Notes under the pieces: model-generated
What the model was told of the DNA's origin: nothing
Seen by the model: the letters and a program-made list of their open reading frames with translations, nothing else
Databases searched by the model: none
Translations under genes and position numbers: made by a program
Part shown: positions 3,629 through 29,800 of the stretch, piece after piece
How positions within the stretch are numbered: the stretch's first letter is position 1
How the letters are laid out: every line of letters starts with the position of its first letter
Origin: a virus
Reading direction: 5' to 3' (one strand)
DNA: 31,815 nucleotides
IMG/VR virus record: IMGVR_UViG_3300031857_000853
Coordinates: 1-31,815 of that record

Positions 3629-4372
3629 ATGTCAGTCAATTTATCACCAATAGGAAACGGAATAAGCTTTTTAGGAACTACAGGCCTGCCATTAGCAGGT
3701 GGTAAGTTATACACTTATCAAGCTGGCTCATCCACACCATTAGCTACTTATACAACTATTGACGGCACTATTGCTAACTCTAATCCAATTATTTTAGGTT
3801 CTGACGGAAAGCTTCCTGAAGAGTTATGGTTAACTTATGGCTATAACTACAAGCTAGTCTTAAAAGATGCAAATGAAGTTTTAATTTATACATACGATAA
3901 TATTTACGGTATTTTAGGAACTATTCCTACATCGTCATCTACTGTGCCTTCAGGCATGATTCTTTTATGGTCAGGTTCTATTGGTTCTATTCCAGCTGGT
4001 TATTATTTGTGTGACGGTTCAAACGGCACGCCTGATTTAAGAAATAGATTTTTAGTTGGTGCTGGTGATTCATATGCAGTCAACGCCACAGGCGGTTCTG
4101 CTGATGCAATTGTGGTATCTCATACACACACCGCAACTTCTGTAGTAACCGACCCAGGCCATACACATACTGTTTCTGTTAACAATCAAGGATCACAAAA
4201 CGGAAATGTATCAGGTGGCGGTTCAATGCCTACAACTGCTGGCGCAACTCTTACAACGGCCTCATCAACAACAGGAATTACAGTTGCTACAACTAACACA
4301 GCGTCAGGCACAAGCGGAACAGGTGCAAACCTTCCTCCATACTATGCACTTTGCTACATTATGAAATCATAA
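3629..4372 (+). CDS. Short tail fibre with phage tail-collar domain, 247 aa
   Basis: The N-terminal ~95 residues (LSPIGNGISFLGTTGLPLAG onward) match a domain that commonly begins phage tail-fibre or tailspike proteins. Residues about 108-150 form a phage tail-collar domain: SGMILLWSGSIGSIPAGYYL, CDGSNGTPDLRNRFLVG. Next comes a His-rich part with HTHT twice, at about residues 167-181, as in T4 gp12-like fibres where HxH motifs bind metal along the trimer axis. The end LPPYYALCYIMKS is typical of collar proteins. It is probably a receptor-binding or accessory fibre. It starts one base after the upstream stop, and the lysis genes follow. Confidence 0.85.
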   Translation: MSVNLSPIGNGISFLGTTGLPLAGGKLYTYQAGSSTPLATYTTIDGTIANSNPIILGSDGKLPEELWLTYGYNYKLVLKDANEVLIYTYDNIYGILGTIPTSSSTVPSGMILLWSGSIGSIPAGYYLCDGSNGTPDLRNRFLVGAGDSYAVNATGGSADAIVVSHTHTATSVVTDPGHTHTVSVNNQGSQNGNVSGGGSMPTTAGATLTTASSTTGITVATTNTASGTSGTGANLPPYYALCYIMKS

Positions 4373-4380
4373 GGACTATC

Positions 4381-4617
4381 ATGGAATTTCAATCTTTATT
4401 TAATATTTTAGTTGGTGCAGGTTTAACTGCTATTGGTTGGTTTGCAAGACAGCTATGGGAAGCCACACAAAATTTAAAAGACGATGTGCAAAAATTAGAA
4501 CTAAACGTATCAGATAACTATGTTAAAAAAATAGATATTAATGCACGTTTTGATAAGATTGAAGCAATTCTTGAACGACTATTTGATAAACTAGAATCAA
4601 AAGCTGATAAAAAATAA
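4381..4617 (+). CDS. Small membrane-anchored coiled-coil protein of the lysis cassette, 78 aa
   Basis: One N-terminal transmembrane segment (about 5-23, FNILVGAGLTAIGWFARQLW) is followed by a charged helix with a heptad-like pattern to the C-terminus (LKDDVQKLELNV ... FDKIEAILERLFDKLES). This layout is widespread next to holin genes in phages and resembles XhlA-type haemolysin/lysis proteins. It may help the holin or link it to the membrane (inference). I chose the ATG at 4381 because AAGGA lies 5 bases before it. An in-frame ATG at 4351 would overlap the fibre gene and lacks a ribosome site. The stop overlaps the next start (TAATGA). Confidence 0.6.
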   Translation: MEFQSLFNILVGAGLTAIGWFARQLWEATQNLKDDVQKLELNVSDNYVKKIDINARFDKIEAILERLFDKLESKADKK

Positions 4618-5009
4618 TGAGCATAGTAGATTCAGTTATTAGTATTGTAGGTTCTGTATTAGAAAAAGTTATTCCTGATACAAACAAACGCAAAGAAGCA
4701 CAAGAACAATTACAAACTTTATTAGCAGGTCAGGAGTTTCAACTTGCAATTGAACAGATTAAAGTTAATGCTATTGAGGCACAATCTGACAGCTTTTTTA
4801 AATCAGGCTGGAGGCCTTCTGTTGGCTGGATATGTTCTATTGCCTTTGGACTTCACTTCGTCATCTTACCCTTATTTAACTACTTTCTTATGCTATGCGG
4901 ACAACAACCGATTATTGTGCCTTTTCAAATGGACACTCTTTTAACTGTGCTTTTAGGTCTATTAGGCATGGGAACTTTAAGAACGTTTGAAAAAATTAAA
5001 ATTAAATGA
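4617..5009 (+). CDS. Holin, 3TM (gene-transfer-agent) family
   Basis: The holin forms holes in the inner membrane at the end of infection, releasing the endolysin. The 130-aa protein has an amphipathic N-terminus (DSVISIVGSVLEKVIPDTNK), a helical charged part and the signature FFKSGWRPSVGWICSIAFGL at about 62-81. This matches the Holin_3TM family as I know it (SGWRP..GW). Two clear membrane segments follow, at about 72-93 and 103-120, and the end is basic (EKIKIK). It overlaps the preceding gene by one base and the endolysin by four (ATGA), forming a compact lysis cassette. Confidence 0.85.
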   Translation: MSIVDSVISIVGSVLEKVIPDTNKRKEAQEQLQTLLAGQEFQLAIEQIKVNAIEAQSDSFFKSGWRPSVGWICSIAFGLHFVILPLFNYFLMLCGQQPIIVPFQMDTLLTVLLGLLGMGTLRTFEKIKIK

Positions 5010-5440
5010 AGTTAACGCCTCATTTTACTTTAAAAGAGTTATATGACTCTGAAATAGCTGATCGTCATAACATAAACAATATGCCTGACGATCCTGTCAT
5101 ATTAAATAACCTTAAATTTTTGGCTGATAATTTAGAAAAAGTGAGGTCTTTACTTGGTAAACCTATGCACATTAACAGCGGTTATCGTAGTCCTCTCGTC
5201 AATTCAAAACTTGGAAGCAGACCTACTAGCGCACATACTAAAGGTTTGGCTGCAGATTTTGTTTGCCCTGCCTATGGTAGTCCTCGTGACATTGTTATTC
5301 GTATTATGGATAGTGATATTGTTTATGATCAACTTATTTTGGAATTTGACCGCTGGGTTCATATTGCCTTTAATAAAGAAAACCCAAGAAAACAAAAACT
5401 AATTATTGATAAATCAGGAACTAGAACTTTTAAGGAGTAA
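5006..5440 (+). CDS. Endolysin, peptidase M15 (D-Ala-D-Ala carboxypeptidase-like)
   Basis: This is a zinc peptidase that cleaves peptidoglycan cross-links and so lyses the host. The 144-aa protein shows the M15_3 pattern. SGYRSPLVN lies at 58-66. SAHTKGLAADF at 75-85 supplies ligands His77 and Asp84. WVHIAF at 117-122 supplies the third ligand, His119. There is no signal peptide, so it needs the holin just upstream to reach the wall. The length is normal for phage M15 endolysins. Its ATG overlaps the holin stop by four bases. Confidence 0.9.
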   Translation: MKLTPHFTLKELYDSEIADRHNINNMPDDPVILNNLKFLADNLEKVRSLLGKPMHINSGYRSPLVNSKLGSRPTSAHTKGLAADFVCPAYGSPRDIVIRIMDSDIVYDQLILEFDRWVHIAFNKENPRKQKLIIDKSGTRTFKE

Positions 5441-5442
5441 TT

Positions 5443-5610
5443 ATGGCAACAAATATGAAATTAGAAAAATGTGAACCTTCTATCCGTCACGAGCAAAAAG
5501 AAATGCAAATGATGAAAGATTGGCAAAAAGAAAAAGCTAAAGTTGAAAAGCTTGCTAAAGACTTAAAGGCACATGAAAAAATGCCGATGAGCAAAGCTCA
5601 CAAGAAATAG
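5443..5610 (+). CDS. Small highly charged protein, 55 aa, unknown
   Basis: The reading frame starts at ATG 5443 with a good SD (AAGGAG, spacing 5) directly after the endolysin stop. The product is almost entirely Lys, Glu, Met and Ala, helical and soluble (e.g. EMQMMKDWQKEKAKVEKLAK), and ends in a basic tail SKAHKK. There is no recognised family. It is the second-last gene of the rightward transcription unit and overlaps the next small ORF by one base. A lysis-timing or late virion role is possible, but nothing in the sequence shows it. Confidence 0.6.
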   Translation: MATNMKLEKCEPSIRHEQKEMQMMKDWQKEKAKVEKLAKDLKAHEKMPMSKAHKK

Positions 5611-5720: not shown

Positions 5721-5725
5721 ATAAA

Positions 5726-5745
5726 AAAGGGCATTTCTGCCCTTT
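5726..5745. terminator. Bidirectional intrinsic terminator between convergent operons
   Basis: Inverted repeat AAAGGGC (5726-5732) and GCCCTTT (5739-5745) with a 6-base loop. Read on the minus strand, the stem runs into a T-rich tract (CCCTTTTTTATTT), so it is a good intrinsic terminator for the leftward operon ending with pqqA. On the plus strand the tail is CCCTTTCTTAATT, weaker but usable, for the lysis operon ending at 5720. Confidence 0.8.
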
Positions 5746-5794
5746 CTTAATTGGATATGTTTTTCTGAGGAACGCTATCCACCTTTTAAAGCTA

Positions 5795-5866
5795 CTATTT
5801 ATTCATAACATACATAGTAACTTCAAAACCAAATCTCATTTCTGTAACTGCTGGTTTAGTCCACAT
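5795..5866 (-). CDS. pqqA: PQQ precursor peptide PqqA, 23 aa
   Basis: PqqA is the ribosomal peptide substrate for pyrroloquinoline quinone. Host PqqD holds it, the radical-SAM enzyme PqqE cross-links its Glu and Tyr, and other Pqq proteins cut out and oxidise them. This minus-strand frame has 23 codons, the same length as the Klebsiella peptide I recall. It aligns to it without gaps: MWTKPA start, Arg11, Gly13, then GFEVTMY (13-19) with the two PQQ-forming residues Glu15 and Tyr19, and Asn22-Lys23 at the end. About 12 of 23 positions are identical to Klebsiella PqqA from memory. An AAGGA site lies 8-9 bases before ATG 5866. It is the last gene of the leftward early operon and is followed by a terminator. 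No pqqB-E genes occur in the window, so host enzymes must process it. Confidence 0.9.
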   Translation of the reverse strand: MWTKPAVTEMRFGFEVTMYVMNK

Positions 5867-5887
5867 AATATATATCCTTATTAAATC

Positions 5888-5902
5888 CAGGCTATTTGCC
5901 TG
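5888..5902 (-). promoter_or_regulatory. Small hairpin in the pqqA leader
   Basis: Inverted repeat CAGGC (5888-5892)/GCCTG (5898-5902) with a 5-base loop lies 9-14 bases upstream of the pqqA ribosome site, in the 84-base gap after the preceding gene. No T-tract follows, so it is not a convincing terminator. It could protect a processed pqqA transcript or modulate ribosome access. The gap shows no strong promoter. The pair TTGTTT/TAATCT with 16-base spacing is poor. Confidence 0.35.
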
Positions 5903-5950
5903 TAAATGTAAGATTACTTGGTTATGCTGGCAAAACAATCAGTAAAATCA

Positions 5951-6208
5951 TTATTTCTTACTTAATCTATTAGCTATAAGTTGAGCATACCCTGCTATGT
6001 CTAACCAATGATCAACTTCCTCAAAATTTCCATTTGCTATTCTAGCTATTTTAGTGCAGATTAAATCTAGCGACTCATTCATATCTAAAGGCAGATGATT
6101 TTCACCTTCAGCTATAACGGCTTTTAAATGTTGGGCAGTTTCAGCTACTTTTTGAAAATCACCATGAATACTATCCCTATTTTTTAAAATTTCATCTACT
6201 TTACTCAT
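5951..6208 (-). CDS. DUF6378-like phage protein, 85 aa
   Basis: A small helical protein of a type common in phages. It starts SKVDEILKNRDSIHGDFQKV and ends with K.ARIANGNFEEVDHWLDIA and GYAQLIANRL, matching my memory of DUF6378 (E.....GDF, K.ARI..GN...D.W.DIAGYA.L). The function of that family is not known to me. The start is placed at ATG 6208 because GGAGGAA lies 5 bases upstream. An in-frame ATG at 6220 would place that site inside the gene. It sits between a SprT-like gene and pqqA at the end of the leftward operon. Confidence 0.7.
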   Translation of the reverse strand: MSKVDEILKNRDSIHGDFQKVAETAQHLKAVIAEGENHLPLDMNESLDLICTKIARIANGNFEEVDHWLDIAGYAQLIANRLSKK

Positions 6209-6235
6209 AACTTCCTCCATAAAAGTAATATATAG

Positions 6236-6792: not shown

Positions 6793-8007
6793 TTATCCTT
6801 TCCAGCTAACCCATTCGGATTTATCTGAATTTTCAAATGATACGTCTACGTTTACAGGCATTGAGAAAGTTATGCCATGATGTGGATGCGTTATCCATAA
6901 AGCTTGACGTGGTGGCTCAAATCCAAAGTTATTACTATAAGCATATTCACAGTATCCTTTGAGCGATCCGTTCACAATCAAACGCTCTAATTGAATCAGT
7001 TGGTGGAAGTGACCTATAATCATAGTGTCGTATTCCATGTCTATTTGTGCGTTCCTAGAGCGCTTTTTATGGTCACCTCGTATGATAGGGCCTAGCGCAC
7101 CAATAACGCCATCACCGCCTCTAAATTGATCGCCGTGGGTTAATAAGTATTTATGATTGTAAACGGCATAGATAGCGTCAGGGCCGTCAGGTATTAGGAA
7201 AGATACTCGTTTATCCGACTCAAAGTGTTTGGCTAGGAATTGATAGGTAAGCCAATCAAACGATGTAAAGTTACGGCCTTTGTTTCTAATCTTGTGGGTA
7301 TTACGGCCATGGTTACCGCCTACGCATGGGACAAAGACGCGGCCAAATTGATTAGCTAGGGTTTCTATACACCAAATTAACACGCCAAATAGGTCAATAA
7401 CCACAGGCATAATCTCTGCGTCGTTAGTAGCCATTAATTCCTCGTGTATGTCACCTGACACCATATCACCGCCTAGGGCAAATACTATGCCAGGATATTT
7501 AGGATTAACCATGTGGTTGTTTAATAGATCAATAGCCACTTCAATCATGCGTTTAGCACGTTTGTGGGCTATTTTCATATTATATGAATTAACGTTGTTG
7601 ATTTGATTAGGGTCTACATTCTCTCCCCAATGCCAATCTGAAGCAAATAAGGTCGGCACGCCTGGAGCGGACTTGCTAGATGTAGGTTTTAATAGCCAGC
7701 TAGGAATAGACGGCTTTTTATCAACCATTTTTAGAATTTTAGATTTAACATAATTCTCACTTAATACATCACGATTGAATGATGCTATTTGAGCCTCTAG
7801 AGTTCTTATTTTATCTTTTAGTGCTATTTCAGGTGGGATTTGTATTTCAGGTGGTAGTGCTTTAAATAGGTTTGCTAACTTGGCTGCTTTTAATCTACCC
7901 TGTAAACAAGCTCGTTTAATACCTAATAACTCTGCTGCCTTTGTTTCACTGCCTGTCTTGTTAAAAGCTTCAACTGCCTCCATCATTTGTTGTTTGCTTA
8001 ATGACAT
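6793..8007 (-). CDS. Calcineurin-like metallophosphoesterase with N-terminal HTH, 404 aa
   Basis: Residues about 1-45 resemble a helix-turn-helix of the DNA-invertase/FIS type (AVEAFNKTGSETKAAELLGI, KRACLQGRLK). Residues 120-340 carry the full metallophosphoesterase ligand set: SDWHWGE (Asp124, His126), GGDMVSGDIH (Asp181), GGNHGR (Asn232, His233), LTHGDQ (His291) and GHFHQ (His333, His335). These enzymes hydrolyse phosphodiester bonds using two metals. The fused DNA-binding motif suggests a nucleic-acid substrate (inference). It is the largest gene of the leftward operon. The substrate cannot be told from sequence. Confidence 0.8.
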   Translation of the reverse strand: MSLSKQQMMEAVEAFNKTGSETKAAELLGIKRACLQGRLKAAKLANLFKALPPEIQIPPEIALKDKIRTLEAQIASFNRDVLSENYVKSKILKMVDKKPSIPSWLLKPTSSKSAPGVPTLFASDWHWGENVDPNQINNVNSYNMKIAHKRAKRMIEVAIDLLNNHMVNPKYPGIVFALGGDMVSGDIHEELMATNDAEIMPVVIDLFGVLIWCIETLANQFGRVFVPCVGGNHGRNTHKIRNKGRNFTSFDWLTYQFLAKHFESDKRVSFLIPDGPDAIYAVYNHKYLLTHGDQFRGGDGVIGALGPIIRGDHKKRSRNAQIDMEYDTMIIGHFHQLIQLERLIVNGSLKGYCEYAYSNNFGFEPPRQALWITHPHHGITFSMPVNVDVSFENSDKSEWVSWKG

Positions 8008-8117
8008 ATATGCGATCCAAATAAAAGTTCTAAAGTAAAAAAGAGGCCTAATAATAGACCTCCTGCTCCAAATACAAGTAATACTTTAATTATAAAATTT
8101 ATAAAACTATCTATCAT
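7998..8117 (-). CDS. Tiny membrane protein, 39 aa
   Basis: An open frame fills the 99-base gap between two genes and overlaps both ends by 10-11 bases. The product is one long hydrophobic segment with glycine spacing (FINFIIKVLLVFGAGGLLLG, then LFFTLELLF). It has no clear SD. Against it, the same DNA contains a good terminator-like hairpin with a T6 tract (8037-8062), which could itself explain the gap. Other tiny membrane ORFs in this operon make a real gene plausible. Confidence 0.45.
   Translation of the reverse strand: MIDSFINFIIKVLLVFGAGGLLLGLFFTLELLFGSHICH
8037..8062 (-). terminator. Intrinsic terminator-like hairpin inside the leftward operon
   Basis: On the minus strand GAGGTC pairs with GGCCTC (one G-U pair) around an 8-base AT loop and is followed directly by six T. 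It would end or attenuate leftward transcription before the phosphoesterase, SprT-like, DUF6378-like and pqqA genes. It overlaps the 39-codon membrane ORF. Confidence 0.5.
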
Positions 8118-8373
8118 GGTTTTTATGTTTTACTTCAATAAACTTTACATCTTTTAATAAGTTAGTTTCACCGTCAAATATAAGTTGCAAATTACATCCT
8201 CTTTGACGGTCTTTAGTGTTTGATGAGATAAAGCTAGCGTGGCCTTTTTTACCTCTGTAAACGTAATATTCTAAAATTACATCAGGTTTTGGTATTTGCA
8301 TCTTTTTAGGATTTAAAACGGATTGTATATCTAAACCATTAATTTGTTTAGCATAAAGTTCAATATTGAGCAT
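8107..8373 (-). CDS. Hypothetical protein, 88 aa
   Basis: Not recognised. It is a small soluble alpha/beta-looking protein with a basic middle (VYRGKKGHASFISSNTKDRQ) and a C-terminal strand-rich part ending VKHKNHDR. GAGGA about 8 bases before ATG 8373 supports the start. It overlaps the SleB-type hydrolase gene by 14 bases and the tiny membrane ORF downstream by 11. There are no cysteines arranged as a zinc site and no membrane span. Confidence 0.6.
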   Translation of the reverse strand: MLNIELYAKQINGLDIQSVLNPKKMQIPKPDVILEYYVYRGKKGHASFISSNTKDRQRGCNLQLIFDGETNLLKDVKFIEVKHKNHDR

Positions 8374-8749
8374 ATTTTAGTTCCTCTTGTTTATAAAAAA
8401 CCATGCGAGACCATTGAACAGTCTTTTTAAGCTTAAACCAGCTTACAGGTTTTTTGATTGAGTTATCGTGGAAATGTGTTGCGCCGTAAGAATAGTCAGG
8501 CTCTAGTTTGTGCATGATGCGCCATGCTAAATTAAGAAAATGTGGATTGATTTCTTTACGTTCAGGTGGTTTAACTTTTCCATACCAAGTAAATTGATTT
8601 GGCCTTTTCATTTCATAACACACTTGTTTTGGATCAAAGTCAGCGCGTCGCATTAAAACGTAACCCACTGATATTTGTGCTTCTTTTGACTCAACGCTAG
8701 ACTCCATGAATATGGTTTGCGCGAGGCATAGTAACGCCTGGTCGATCAT
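8360..8749 (-). CDS. SleB-type cell wall hydrolase, 129 aa
   Basis: The protein matches the Hydrolase_2/SleB fold, which cuts the glycan backbone of peptidoglycan. ALLCLAQTIFMESSVESKEA contains the catalytic-type Glu16. The rest also fits: VGYVLMRR, the substrate-cleft motif FTWY, and a C-terminal ATHFHDNSI...PVSWFKLKK. The start at ATG 8749 is chosen because GGGAGG lies 6 bases upstream. An in-frame ATG at 8797 would overlap the YqaJ gene. There is no signal peptide. It lies in the early leftward operon, far from the holin/M15 lysis cassette, which is unusual for a lysin. Confidence 0.75.
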   Translation of the reverse strand: MIDQALLCLAQTIFMESSVESKEAQISVGYVLMRRADFDPKQVCYEMKRPNQFTWYGKVKPPERKEINPHFLNLAWRIMHKLEPDYSYGATHFHDNSIKKPVSWFKLKKTVQWSRMVFYKQEELKYAQY

Positions 8750-8793
8750 ATAAGACCTCCCTGTGTAGTTGCCAAGTTGTATTATACCATTTT

Positions 8794-9429
8794 TCAATTT
8801 TTGTCATTTTCAAGACGTAGAATTAGGTCATCAACTTCAGTTAAGAACTGTTTTACTTCCAACTCCATTTCTTTGATCATTGATAAGTCTTTTTCTACTC
8901 TGCTAATAAACAAACGATTTTTAAATGGTAGCCTTGGGTCGTATGAAACAAAGTCTGCCCATTCACGACCTGTAACCCATAATTGACATTGGATTTGTTT
9001 GTAGTAATCGCCAGGCACTTTGTTTTCAAAAATATAATCTAAATGCGTGGTAGTATTAGGGCATTTGATTTCTACTAAATGTTTGTCACCAAGTAGACGA
9101 TCAGGGGATACGCCAAGCCATTTGATTTCAGGATGCTTCCAAAAGCCTGTCTTTTCTAAAAACGTGCCTGTAGCTGCCTCGTATGCCATGGCTGCCATGG
9201 GTTCGTTTTCTACTCCCCATGCCATCGCGTCATTAGAATAAGATTCTAGCGGTTGCATAGTTAACCTTTCAGCTACAAGGCGAGTTTTATATTTTTTACG
9301 ACCTATGGCCTCGCCTGTTTTACCTTTAGACATTACCTCTGCAATATTGCTAGCACTGACATATCCTAATTTTGCAGTAGCCCACTCAACCGAACCTTGC
9401 TCTAGATGTGTGCAATCGTTGGCGATCAT
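8794..9429 (-). CDS. YqaJ-type viral recombinase exonuclease
   Basis: This is a lambda-Exo-like 5'-3' exonuclease that makes single-stranded ends for an annealing protein. The 211-aa sequence has the PD-(D/E)XK core: WGVENEPMA (Glu74/Glu76), SPDRLLG (Asp110), VEIKCP (Glu120, Lys122) and YKQIQCQLWVTG with Gln147. The N-terminal part (QGSVEWATAKLGYVSASNIA) is the usual YqaJ start. Its ATG overlaps the stop of the upstream HTH gene by four bases. Three genes away lies the annealing protein, so the pair forms a two-component recombination system. Confidence 0.9.
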   Translation of the reverse strand: MIANDCTHLEQGSVEWATAKLGYVSASNIAEVMSKGKTGEAIGRKKYKTRLVAERLTMQPLESYSNDAMAWGVENEPMAAMAYEAATGTFLEKTGFWKHPEIKWLGVSPDRLLGDKHLVEIKCPNTTTHLDYIFENKVPGDYYKQIQCQLWVTGREWADFVSYDPRLPFKNRLFISRVEKDLSMIKEMELEVKQFLTEVDDLILRLENDKN

Positions 9430-9641
9430 TTTTGAGGCTCCAGCTTGTATTCAGCTACATGACAAACTTCTTTATATTTATTTTTTACTTTTTTAGTATT
9501 GGTTGTAATTTCATAGCCTTTTTTTCTTAAATTGAAAATAGTATCTGCTAACCGATAAATGCCTAATTGAGTCCATGCTTTTAGTGGATCAATCTTGCCA
9601 TGCTTTTCTAAATACTTTGTCAAACGTTCTTGTTGATTCAT
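9426..9641 (-). CDS. Small helix-turn-helix protein (HTH_39 type), 71 aa
   Basis: The sequence follows a pattern very common in phages: N..ERL..YLEK.GKIDPLKAWTQLGIYRLADTIFNLRKKGYEI, a winged-helix-like HTH from about residue 5 to 45, then a basic strand region ending in VAEYKL. It probably binds DNA, perhaps as a local regulator or recombination accessory (inference). GGAGGA lies 5 bases before ATG 9641. It sits between an exported peptide gene and the YqaJ exonuclease. Confidence 0.75.
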   Translation of the reverse strand: MNQQERLTKYLEKHGKIDPLKAWTQLGIYRLADTIFNLRKKGYEITTNTKKVKNKYKEVCHVAEYKLEPQK

Positions 9642-9649
9642 ATATCCTC

Positions 9650-9790
9650 CTAGAAACAGTTAGTAACGTTACCGCAGGTGGTGCAATTAATTATGCGGCC
9701 ATCTACGATATAGGTTTGTGTGTAACAAGCGTAAGCTTTGATTGCAAACAAAACGCCAATTAATCCTACGACTAAAATTAACTTTTTCAT
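9650..9790 (-). CDS. Exported cysteine-rich small protein, 46 aa
   Basis: A short frame with a very strong ribosome site (GGAGGAG, 5 bases before ATG 9790). The product has a classic signal peptide (MKKLILVVGLIGVLFAIKAY, cleavage expected after A-Y-A at about 21). A short mature part of about 25 residues has four cysteines, at 22, 36, 39 and 45 (CYTQTY, INCTTCGNVTNC). It is not a lipobox because residue -3 is Ala-Tyr-Ala rather than Leu. It would act in the periplasm or outer membrane, with disulphides likely. An exclusion or envelope-modifying role is possible but unproven. Confidence 0.7.
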   Translation of the reverse strand: MKKLILVVGLIGVLFAIKAYACYTQTYIVDGRIINCTTCGNVTNCF

Positions 9791-10327
9791 TTACTCCTCC
9801 AATTTAGATTTTTTAGTTGATAATGCTGAACGTATAGTCGTTATAACATCAGGTTGACTACCAAACCTTCTTTGAGCCTCTTTAAATATATCTTTTAAAG
9901 ACTCAATAGATTCTGCTTCATTGATAGCTTCTAAAACTTGGTTTATGTCCTCATCTGAAGCTGGTTGCTCTTGAGGCACATCCTCGCCTGCGTATATATA
10001 TAAACCAATTCCATGTAATGCAATAGCCTTGGCCAAACAACGTTGCATGGCTGTATTAACTGCCATGGCGTCAGGGTTTATAACGGCTTTATTCTTGTAA
10101 TCTAATACAGGTAGTTGAGCTGTCATAGATTTACCAAAAGCCGTCACCGAGCAAAATACCATTAGGGTATCGCCAAATTGTTTAGGCTCTTTATATTCCC
10201 AGGTGGCTGTTGGATCGCGTTGTAATAAAGTATCCACCGCCCACGCCCATGAAAGATAGGTTAGGTTTCCTTTCTTCTCTGTGTGGTCATTTACGTTGAT
10301 ACTGCGTAAATCGTTAAATGTGGTCAT
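9791..10327 (-). CDS. Single-strand annealing protein, DUF1071/Sak type
   Basis: Phage annealing proteins pair complementary single strands made by an exonuclease. The 178-aa protein has the DUF1071 signature: F.DLRSINVNDHTEKKGNLTYLSWAWAVD at about 4-32, SVTAFGKSMTAQLPVLD, and AMAVNTAMQRCLAKAIALHGIGLYIYAGED at about 87-116. The C-terminal third is acidic and variable. With the YqaJ exonuclease at 8794-9429 it forms a complete exonuclease/annealing pair. The start (AAGGG, 6 bases upstream) overlaps the stop of a 29-codon ORF by four bases. Confidence 0.85.
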   Translation of the reverse strand: MTTFNDLRSINVNDHTEKKGNLTYLSWAWAVDTLLQRDPTATWEYKEPKQFGDTLMVFCSVTAFGKSMTAQLPVLDYKNKAVINPDAMAVNTAMQRCLAKAIALHGIGLYIYAGEDVPQEQPASDEDINQVLEAINEAESIESLKDIFKEAQRRFGSQPDVITTIRSALSTKKSKLEE

Positions 10328-26893: not shown

Positions 26894-29800
26894 ATGTCAC
26901 TATTATCAAGAATAGCAGTAGAGGCAGCTAGAGGTTTTGGTGTATTTTCCAAAAAAGGCGGTGTTTCTGCTACTTATCTTGCTGTAGCTGGAGGTGGTGG
27001 CGGCGGCAGTAATGCAAACACTTATAATGGCGGAACAGGTGGTGGCGGTGCTGGAGGATATCAAACATCTACTTTTTCTTTATCAACTCTTAATACATAT
27101 ACTATTACAGTAGGTGCAGGAGGTTCAGGAGCAACAGCTGGAACACCTGCAACAGGAAGTAATGGAGCTAATTCAGTTATTTCAGGAGCAGGTTTATCTA
27201 CCATTACATCAATTGGTGGTGGCGGAGGTGGTAAATCAGGAGCTTCAGGAAATGAAGGTGCAGCTGGTGGTTCAGGTGGCGGAGCGGGAACATCAGGAAC
27301 TGCAACTGTTTCAGGTGGAGCAGGAACATCAGGACAAGGTAATAACGGAGGTAGTTCGTCTTCTACAGGCGCAACTTATGGTGCAGGTGGTGGTGGTGGT
27401 GCAAGTGCAGTAGGCTCTAATGGATCAGGAAATAATGGTGGTAATGGTGGTGCAGGCTCTGCGTCATCTATATCAGGTTCAAGCGTAACTTACGCTGGTG
27501 GTGGAGGCGGTGGAGCTTACACACCTGGAACTGCTGGAACAGGTGGTTCAGGTGGCGGTGGCAATGGATCATTAAATTCAGGAACTTCAGGAACAGCCAA
27601 TTTAGGTGGTGGTGGTGGAGGTGGCGGATCAGGAAGCGGATCAGGAAGTAGTGGCGGCGCAGGCGGTTCAGGCATAGTCATCATATCTTACGCATCTGCT
27701 ACACCTTTATTCGTAGGTGGCACTCTTACTACTTCAGGTGGTAACCAAATACACACATTCACATCTTCAGGCACATTAAGCCCTCTTACACCTGTAACAG
27801 CTAGTTATTTAGTAGTGGCTGGTGGTGGTGGAGGTGGTGGTTATGGTGCAGGTGGTGCAGGAGGTTTACTTACAGGTTCTACAACTATCTATGCAGGCGC
27901 AACTTATGTAGTAACAGTTGGTGCTGGTGGAGCAGGTGGAAATGCAGCAACAAATGTTAGAGGAAGTTCAGGTTCAAATACAGTTTTAAGTGGCACAGGA
28001 TTAACTACATTTACTTGTATTGGTGGCGGTGGAGGTGGTGCTGACATAGCAGGTGGAAGTGGTGGTTCAGGTGGTGGCGGTGGTGTTCCTGGCTCAAGTG
28101 GAGCAGGAGGTGCTGGCACTTCAGGTCAAGGTAATAATGGTGGTAATGGAACAGGTTCAGGAGGAGCTTCAGGCGGAGGCGGAGGTGGTGCTGGAGGAGT
28201 TGGTGGAAACGCATCAGGTGGCACAGGAGGTGCTGGCGGTTTAGGTGTTTCATCATCAATTACAGGAACATCTTTATTTTACGCAGGTGGCGGAGGCGGA
28301 GGTGGTTCAACTACAGGAGCTTCAGGTGGTAGTGGAGTGGGTGGAAATGGCTCATCTGCATCATCAAATAATAATACATCAGGAACTCCTTTTACAGGTT
28401 CAGGTGGTGGAGGTGGTCGTGATAATAGAGGTTCTGACGGAAATTCAGGTATCGTTATCATCTCATACGCTGGCTCACAAGTATTTAACGGTGGTCTAGT
28501 CACATCATCAGGTGGTAATACTATCCACACATTTACAGCTACAGGTGCTTTAACACCACTTACTAATAACCTAAACAATTCTTTAAGGTTTAGAAGTAGT
28601 GCTAGTGCTTATTTAAATAGAACTTTAGGAACTCCAACTGATGGAAAAGTTTGGACATGGAGTGGTTGGGTTAAACGTGGAGCGCTTGGTTCTGGACTAT
28701 ATGGAATACAACATGCTTTTAGTGCAACAAATAATCAAGGTGGAATTTATTTTAGTGCAGACGCTTTAGTCATTCTTGATTATCCAACTTCTTTAAACTG
28801 TAATTTAGTAACAACGCAAGTTTTTCGTGACCCTTCTGCTTGGTATCATATAGTAGTTTCAGTAGATACAACTCAAGCTGTAGCAGCTAATAGAATTAAA
28901 TTATATATTAATGGTAACCAAGTAACTGCGTTTAGCACATCAACTTATCCAACTCAAAACACAATTTTAAGAATGGTTGCATCTGGAAATAGCGGTTCTA
29001 TTGGTCGCTATTATGACGGAACAAGCTATTACTATGACGGTTACATGACTGACATTAACTTCATTGACGGTCAAGCACTAGAACCATATTACTTTGGCAA
29101 TAATGACGCTAATGGTGTATGGAAACCAATTCAATATAAAGGCACATACGGAACTAACGGTTTCTACCTAACATTTAGTAACACAACATCTACTACAACA
29201 TTAGGCTACGATAGTTCACCTAACGGTAACAATTGGACAACTAACAACATTAGCTTAACAGCAGGCACAACCTATGATGCTATGTTAGATGTTCCTACTA
29301 ATACAAGTGCGACTGTGGCTAATTATGCTGTATGGAGTCCATTAGTTGGTTCTGTAGGTGTAACTTTATCTCAAGCTAACTTATCAGCAACATTTGATAC
29401 TGCTAGCGGAACTAGATATGGAACAATAGGAACAATAGGTGTTTCTAGTGGTAAATGGTATTGGGAATATGAATTTAGTGCTGGTGGCAATAGTGCATTA
29501 TTAGGAATTACTCAAAAACCATTTGCTGTTCAAATGGGAACATGGCCTGGTGAACAAACAGGTGATTACGGATATTTTGGAAGCAATGGCAATAAATATA
29601 CTGCTGGTTCAGGTTCAGCTTATGGCGCAACATTTACAACAGGTGATGTTATTGGTGTAGCTTTAGACCTAGACGCTGGAACACTTACTTTCTACAAAAA
29701 TAATACTTCTCAAGGCACAGCTTATTCAAGTATTAGTGGAACATTTTTCCCAGCTATTGGTAAAGGTATAACTGCAACAGGTATTACATCATTTATAAAC

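Follow-up and report, generated by a model that had tools for sequence, protein, structure and literature searches.

Can a reading frame of only 23 codons in a small phage genome be a working gene for PqqA, the precursor peptide of the cofactor PQQ, and what would such a gene do for the phage? The stretch of DNA analysed here, a virus record 31,815 bases long that is referred to as the window, encodes a terminase, a portal protein of the P22-like family, a scaffold, a major head protein, a holin and an endolysin, and its first 20 kb matched no phage record by megablast. An earlier note on this DNA had proposed a phage-encoded PqqA in a 23-codon minus-strand frame with a good ribosome site, and both the frame and the site were recovered by translation and inspection of the sequence at these positions:

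5795..5866, minus strand: pqqA, the 23-residue PQQ precursor peptide MWTKPAVTEMRFGFEVTMYVMNK, with Glu15 and Tyr19 present and with profile matches
5875..5879, minus strand: Shine-Dalgarno sequence AAGGA, 8 nt 5′ of the ATG, read from the sequence

Translation of the minus strand from 5866 to 5795 yields MWTKPAVTEMRFGFEVTMYVMNK followed by a stop, a short peptide gene whose start, ribosome site and stop are all intact. The crosslinked pair of PqqA, 4 residues apart near the C terminus, is represented by E15 and Y19, both at the PQQ-forming positions exactly as the note had claimed. A comparison with PqqA profile HMMs, set beforehand as a check, matched both Pfam PF08042 (43.8 bits, E=2.3e-11, cut-off 21.1) and the NCBIfam equivalog TIGR02107 (46.5 bits, E=2.2e-12, cut-off 20), and the identification of a phage-encoded PqqA is well supported with both scores above their cut-offs. 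With a custom HMM made from 27 distinct Methylophilaceae-type host PqqA sequences the window frame scored 63.0 bits against 12.3 bits for the best frame of 50 dinucleotide-shuffled windows, and the match is therefore not a product of chance. Judged by its sequence, the frame is a full-length and intact PqqA and, by the same token, a real phage pqqA gene. The surroundings of the gene are as follows:

4617..5610, plus strand: convergent late genes (holin, M15 endolysin and a small hypothetical)
5722..5749: terminator hairpin (-16 kcal/mol, z -6.0) lying where the two operons converge, retained in the pqqA-less relative G132
5951..6220, minus strand: hyp89, the next gene upstream from pqqA, situated where the leftward recombination operon ends
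6793..10327, minus strand: leftward recombination operon with an SbcD-like exonuclease, a RecE-like exonuclease and a Sak-like annealing protein

The final gene of the leftward operon is pqqA, with the strong hairpin terminator next to it and the late genes converging beyond, and it is placed between phage genes and not in a host remnant.

The occurrence of the gene in other phages was investigated by tblastn with the window PqqA against 50,697 phage records, a collection in which MEP431-434, Venkman EXVC038S, phiMB624-A and HIM624-A, which are named in the taxonomy, were not encountered. Matches were found in nine deposited methylophages, namely P19250A, Venkman, MEP301, MEP401, MEP402 and four Melnitz genomes, for which the hosts on record are Methylophilales or Methylophilaceae, and also in the Manatee Spring podovirus (MW202481). 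The carriers range from a T4-like myovirus to several small phages and differ in type, Melnitz being filed in the Kyanoviridae and MEP401/402 in the Zobellviridae. None of the nine methylophage genomes names the gene as pqqA, and five of them (P19250A, Venkman, MEP301, MEP401 and MEP402) have no feature annotated at its position; gene callers miss a frame of this length, which the note had described as below the usual gene-calling length and easily missed. The annotated frame at pqqA lies on the opposite strand in Melnitz-1 and in the Manatee Spring record, and the hypothetical proteins annotated there antisense to pqqA (L126 4961-5056 in Melnitz-1, L127 2067-2195 in MW202481) are likely wrong-strand calls over pqqA. 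A match in 'Acinetobacter phage MD-2021a' was rejected as a phage pqqA, being host DNA in which pqqBCDE follows pqqA. That locus (L128, CAKLQF020000010.1 103210-113263), with pqqA, then pqqBCDE, polyphosphate kinase and fur, looks like bacterial chromosome and not phage.

A PqqA codon pattern, the register of which was confirmed on the window, matches at least 120 IMG/VR contigs, and a control pattern one base out of register (an extra N) matched 0 viral contigs and had 0 matches in the window. Among the matches listed, pqqA-bearing records reach 356 kb in size, and an SD-like motif precedes pqqA in 125 of 126 phage loci. The terminases of the pqqA-bearing records varied, with a Terminase_6N match in 16 of the 33 tested. 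On a 356,312-base IMG/VR contig (L020 / G153) one pqqA is found at 5880-5942. Another pqqA-bearing viral contig matched the Rfam beta_tmRNA and permuted tmRNA families at 4022-4393 (L042). A second viral kind of PqqA (IRLGFEVTMYF, VRLGFEITMYF and similar; L003, L008, L010, L014, L018, L028, L032 and L107) resembles non-Methylophilaceae PqqA, with several copies beginning 9-10 nt past the upstream frame, and its carriers are probably phages of other PQQ makers.

Two further features were assigned in the leader of the window gene:

5888..5902, minus strand: leader stem-loop CAGGC-AAATA-GCCTG (-8.3 kcal/mol, z -2.1)
5911..5916, minus strand: candidate −10 box TAATCT, with 8 nt between it and the stem-loop that follows, proposed from other phage pqqA leaders

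The box in the window is a weak match to the consensus, and scanning the window by itself for the consensus gave no more than chance would. Among the matches listed, 51% of the phage pqqA leaders have the stem-loop and about half fall under the stem-loop threshold, compared with 22% of the other intergenic leaders from the same pqqA-bearing contigs and 15% of shuffles. A stem-loop unique to pqqA was considered and rejected, since intergenic leaders elsewhere on these contigs are likewise above shuffles (z 6.9 vs 10.9). The sole distinctive leader trait is the arrangement of −10 box plus stem-loop, a −10-like box being present 9-14 nt before the stem in 27 of the 119 phage pqqA leaders among the matches listed (22.7%), in 3 of the 223 other phage leaders (1.3%), in 1.0% of shuffles and in 0 of the 156 host pqqA leaders. 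Stem position is kept and stem sequence varies in collinear relatives, with CAGGC/GCCTG in the window, ATACAT/ATGTAT in G122, CAAGC/GCTTG in G133 and GTAACAAG/CTTGTTAC at the same place in G123 and G124; the leaders of G122 and G133 fold no better than shuffled sequence. With the stem following directly on the −10 box, the mRNA would begin at the stem or close to it. The gene may have a promoter of its own that gives a small mRNA, the decay of which would be slowed by the 5′-proximal stem-loop; a 5′-end stem slows mRNA decay in E. coli according to works cited in PMC3997798. It is rather unlikely that the stem-loop is instead an operator or attenuator switching pqqA on and off, although inverted repeats beside a −10 box are typical of operators and several of the leaders have strong stems. 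The stem differs between lineages, and between the window and G122 despite their identical pqqA, which ill suits a single DNA-binding protein, and an Rfam search of the leader stem-loop matched no family. Instead of having its own promoter, pqqA could also be read through from the recombination operon.

In PQQ synthesis PqqD binds PqqA and PqqE crosslinks its Glu and Tyr, these being Glu-16 and Tyr-20 in that numbering (PMC10906245), and the conservation of the phage peptide as a substrate was assessed on 128 pqqA copies among the matches listed, comprising 116 distinct DNA sequences and 49 distinct peptide cores. The residues W2, K4, P5, G13, E15, T17 and Y19 are fixed by the pattern and their conservation was not counted as evidence. 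Among these listed copies the stop is exactly 22 residues after Trp2 in 128/128, the pattern-free residues Arg11 and Phe14 are each found in 128/128, and the likewise pattern-free positions 16 and 18 are confined to Val/Ile/Cys and Met/Leu, respectively. Over residues 6-12, the seven left free by the pattern, pN/pS is 0.43 in the listed copies and the constraint on them is therefore only moderate. The same frame with both Glu15 and Tyr19 was present in 97 of the 120 contigs among the matches listed. Two codon-pattern scans of IMG/VR found no viral PqqA without Glu15 or Tyr19, the scans seeing only a codon 15 not starting with G or a codon 19 not starting with T in otherwise pattern-matching copies, so that divergent variants could escape. 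Loss of the pair or of the frame in related phages, which the note had named as a point to check, was accordingly found neither among the matches listed nor in the codon scans. Two collinear relatives carry Thr for Lys at position 4 (MWTTPAATEM; G123 26904-26966 and G124 6922-6984), a change also seen in the host copies L252 and L263.

These data bear on the possibility, raised in the note, that the phage peptide titrates PqqD/PqqE as a decoy, blocking or redirecting PQQ synthesis and slowing host metabolism. A substrate analogue of 23 residues could compete for PqqD, and there is a difference between phage and host peptides at residue 6, with Ser in 32/128 phage copies among the matches listed against 0/179 host copies and Thr in 23/128 against 6/179. 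A decoy would however gain by losing the reacting residues, the remainder of the phage peptide is close to host PqqA, and an intact substrate simply becomes PQQ. Titration is therefore disfavoured by the retention of Glu15 and Tyr19 and is considered highly improbable.

The remaining genes of the pathway were then sought in the phages. With queries shown to detect Methylophilaceae operons, pqqB-E were found near pqqA in 0 of the 120 contigs among the matches listed, the search covering the stretch around pqqA. Each of 28 larger phage records contains exactly one PqqA, and PqqD or PqqE above cut-off was found in 0 of the 28, with two weak radical-SAM matches to PqqE far under the cut-off. The 356,312-base contig has a weak radical-SAM match to PqqE elsewhere on the contig (22.2 bits, below cut-off). 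A PQQ alcohol dehydrogenase was found in 0 of 22 records tested, window included. As far as these searches of their sequences reach, the pqqA phages carry no other gene of the pathway, and without pqqB-E and a PQQ dehydrogenase of their own they must therefore have both enzymes and dehydrogenase supplied by the host.

The window peptide is Methylophilaceae-type by genome scan, and together with the methylophage isolates, which agree with this, we infer that the window phage infects a Methylophilaceae methylotroph. Marine and freshwater methanol is turned over by members of this family (OM43, LD28). None of the 120 Methylophilaceae genomes searched lacked PqqA; copies numbered 4.28 on average (median 4, maximum 12), and 114 genomes had at least two. 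Methylophilales bacterium LSUCC0135 (L164 / G002), with 12 PqqA matches in a 2.1 Mb genome, is among the top two of the 120. Above cut-off, PqqE occurred once per genome in five Methylophilaceae genomes, and among 172 host loci, local stretches almost without exception chosen for a pqqA copy, just 43 had a pqqB match. One methylotroph has been described with five pqqA copies, of which three are stand-alone in the genome (PMC9851590). Several precursor copies beside single enzyme genes would suit the idea that precursor supply matters.

Methylotroph hosts need PQQ for methanol oxidation, and each PQQ consumes one PqqA molecule. Taking these results jointly, phage pqqA probably supplies precursor to host PqqD/PqqE, sustaining PQQ and methanol oxidation during infection. 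Host PqqD and PqqE would accept the phage peptide and crosslink Glu15 to Tyr19, and the remaining host enzymes would complete PQQ from it. It is proposed that PqqA, of which one molecule is consumed per PQQ and for which the hosts have several gene copies, would be the first step to fail when host transcription is taken over by the phage; with PqqA refilled, methanol dehydrogenase would stay loaded with PQQ and energy would continue to flow during infection. The presence of pqqA in unrelated methylophages points to a shortage of this single consumable in infected cells. Of the mechanisms considered, we infer that the boost of PQQ towards methanol dehydrogenase put forward in the note is the best supported. 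That PQQ made from the phage peptide serves another end, either occupying an outer-membrane PQQ receptor and thereby excluding a second phage or acting as an antioxidant, seems very unlikely. In E. coli, a phage whose receptor is the PQQ importer PqqU is indeed blocked by PQQ (PMC12124388), but with carriers as unlike as a T4-like myovirus and small phages a common receptor is unlikely, and the dependence of the host on PQQ for methanol oxidation is the simpler link.

The supply of precursor by phage pqqA also has to be reconciled with how the gene is distributed. Among the matches listed, the nearest neighbour is another phage copy for 113 of the 128 phage pqqA copies and a host copy for 7. 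The coding sequence of the window pqqA is identical to that of G122, with the nearest host copy 9/66 nt away. Related phages, in which the note had advised looking for the gene, have it at the site of the window in G122, G123, G124 and G133, and in the collinear G132 both leader and pqqA are absent with the terminator retained, leaving an empty site. Overall pqqA was found in 5 of 30 relatives of the window (searched by portal/terminase), the long relatives G125 (36 kb) and G132 (33 kb) being without it and many of the other relative records being incomplete. Given this patchiness, even closely related phages can do without pqqA, unless the pqqA-less relatives have other hosts. Venkman and the Manatee Spring podovirus share only about 85 bp, corresponding to the pqqA stretch (megablast, 10 kb compared), which fits a gene moving between unrelated phages, and because position and orientation differ across unrelated lineages, pqqA must have been gained repeatedly or moved between phages. 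A passenger copy of a host gene, caught by recombination and kept by chance with no benefit to the phage, would account for the patchiness among close relatives and the clean empty site in G132 but is scarcely credible given that only 7 of the listed copies are nearest to a host copy, that the frame is intact in 128/128 among the matches listed, that repeated gain or phage-to-phage movement is indicated and that host pqqA genes lack the arrangement of −10 box plus stem-loop.

A wider reading, possible but put forward tentatively, is that pqqA is a compact transferable expression cassette, made up of promoter, 5′-terminal stem-loop, ribosome site and 23 codons, and that unrelated methylophages repeatedly gained it because the supply of a consumed precursor, and not an enzyme, limits host energy metabolism in infection. 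Should phage pqqA act in the way suggested here, the gene choice of phages would reveal where infection puts the host under strain, in this case a consumable precursor and not an enzyme. Limitation by PQQ precursor is testable in existing pairs, with Venkman or Melnitz on H5P1 and MEP301 on FZCC2181.

Cyanophage psbA-type genes are known examples of a phage supplying a short-lived or consumed host component in infection; psbA however encodes a protein subunit, whereas PqqA, a ribosomal peptide, itself becomes the cofactor. Host PqqA of the Methylophilaceae (PF08042 / TIGR02107) has the same length, Glu15/Tyr19 and the RFGFEVTMY core, and the phage gene differs from it in lacking the rest of the pathway, in its copies mostly clustering together and in its other leader architecture. 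The stand-alone pqqA of methylotrophs (PMC9851590) is likewise apart from the pqqBCDE operon, with PqqA supply via copy number, but is chromosomal and owned by the host. Viral PqqA as such is already known (PMC7678222, PMC13188868). The T4-like methylotroph viruses VP_139/VP_266 from Lake Baikal, described in 2020, encode PqqA and were proposed to raise methanol oxidation (PMC7678222). They resemble the window in being viruses of presumed Methylophilaceae with PqqA, but there PqqA accompanies a viral methanol dehydrogenase in a single representative, whereas the window, from a small phage with a P22-like portal, and many unrelated phages have PqqA on its own, and a PQQ-dependent dehydrogenase in the same virus was seen in 0 of the 22 records tested, the window among them. 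A reservoir-sediment listing of viral pqqA/pqqD/pqqE from 2026 includes pqqA among auxiliary metabolic genes, classing it with phosphate-solubilising genes and giving, in the text searched, neither a sequence analysis nor expression signals (PMC13188868). The accessible parts of the published texts on Melnitz, MEP401/402, Venkman and MEP301 make no mention of phage PqqA, and the recurrent stand-alone pqqA of methylophages and its leader appear unreported in the open-licence PMC literature. Beyond the single peptide of the earlier note, the analysis thus adds the recurrence of pqqA across unrelated methylophages, its empty site and its candidate promoter/stem-loop leader.
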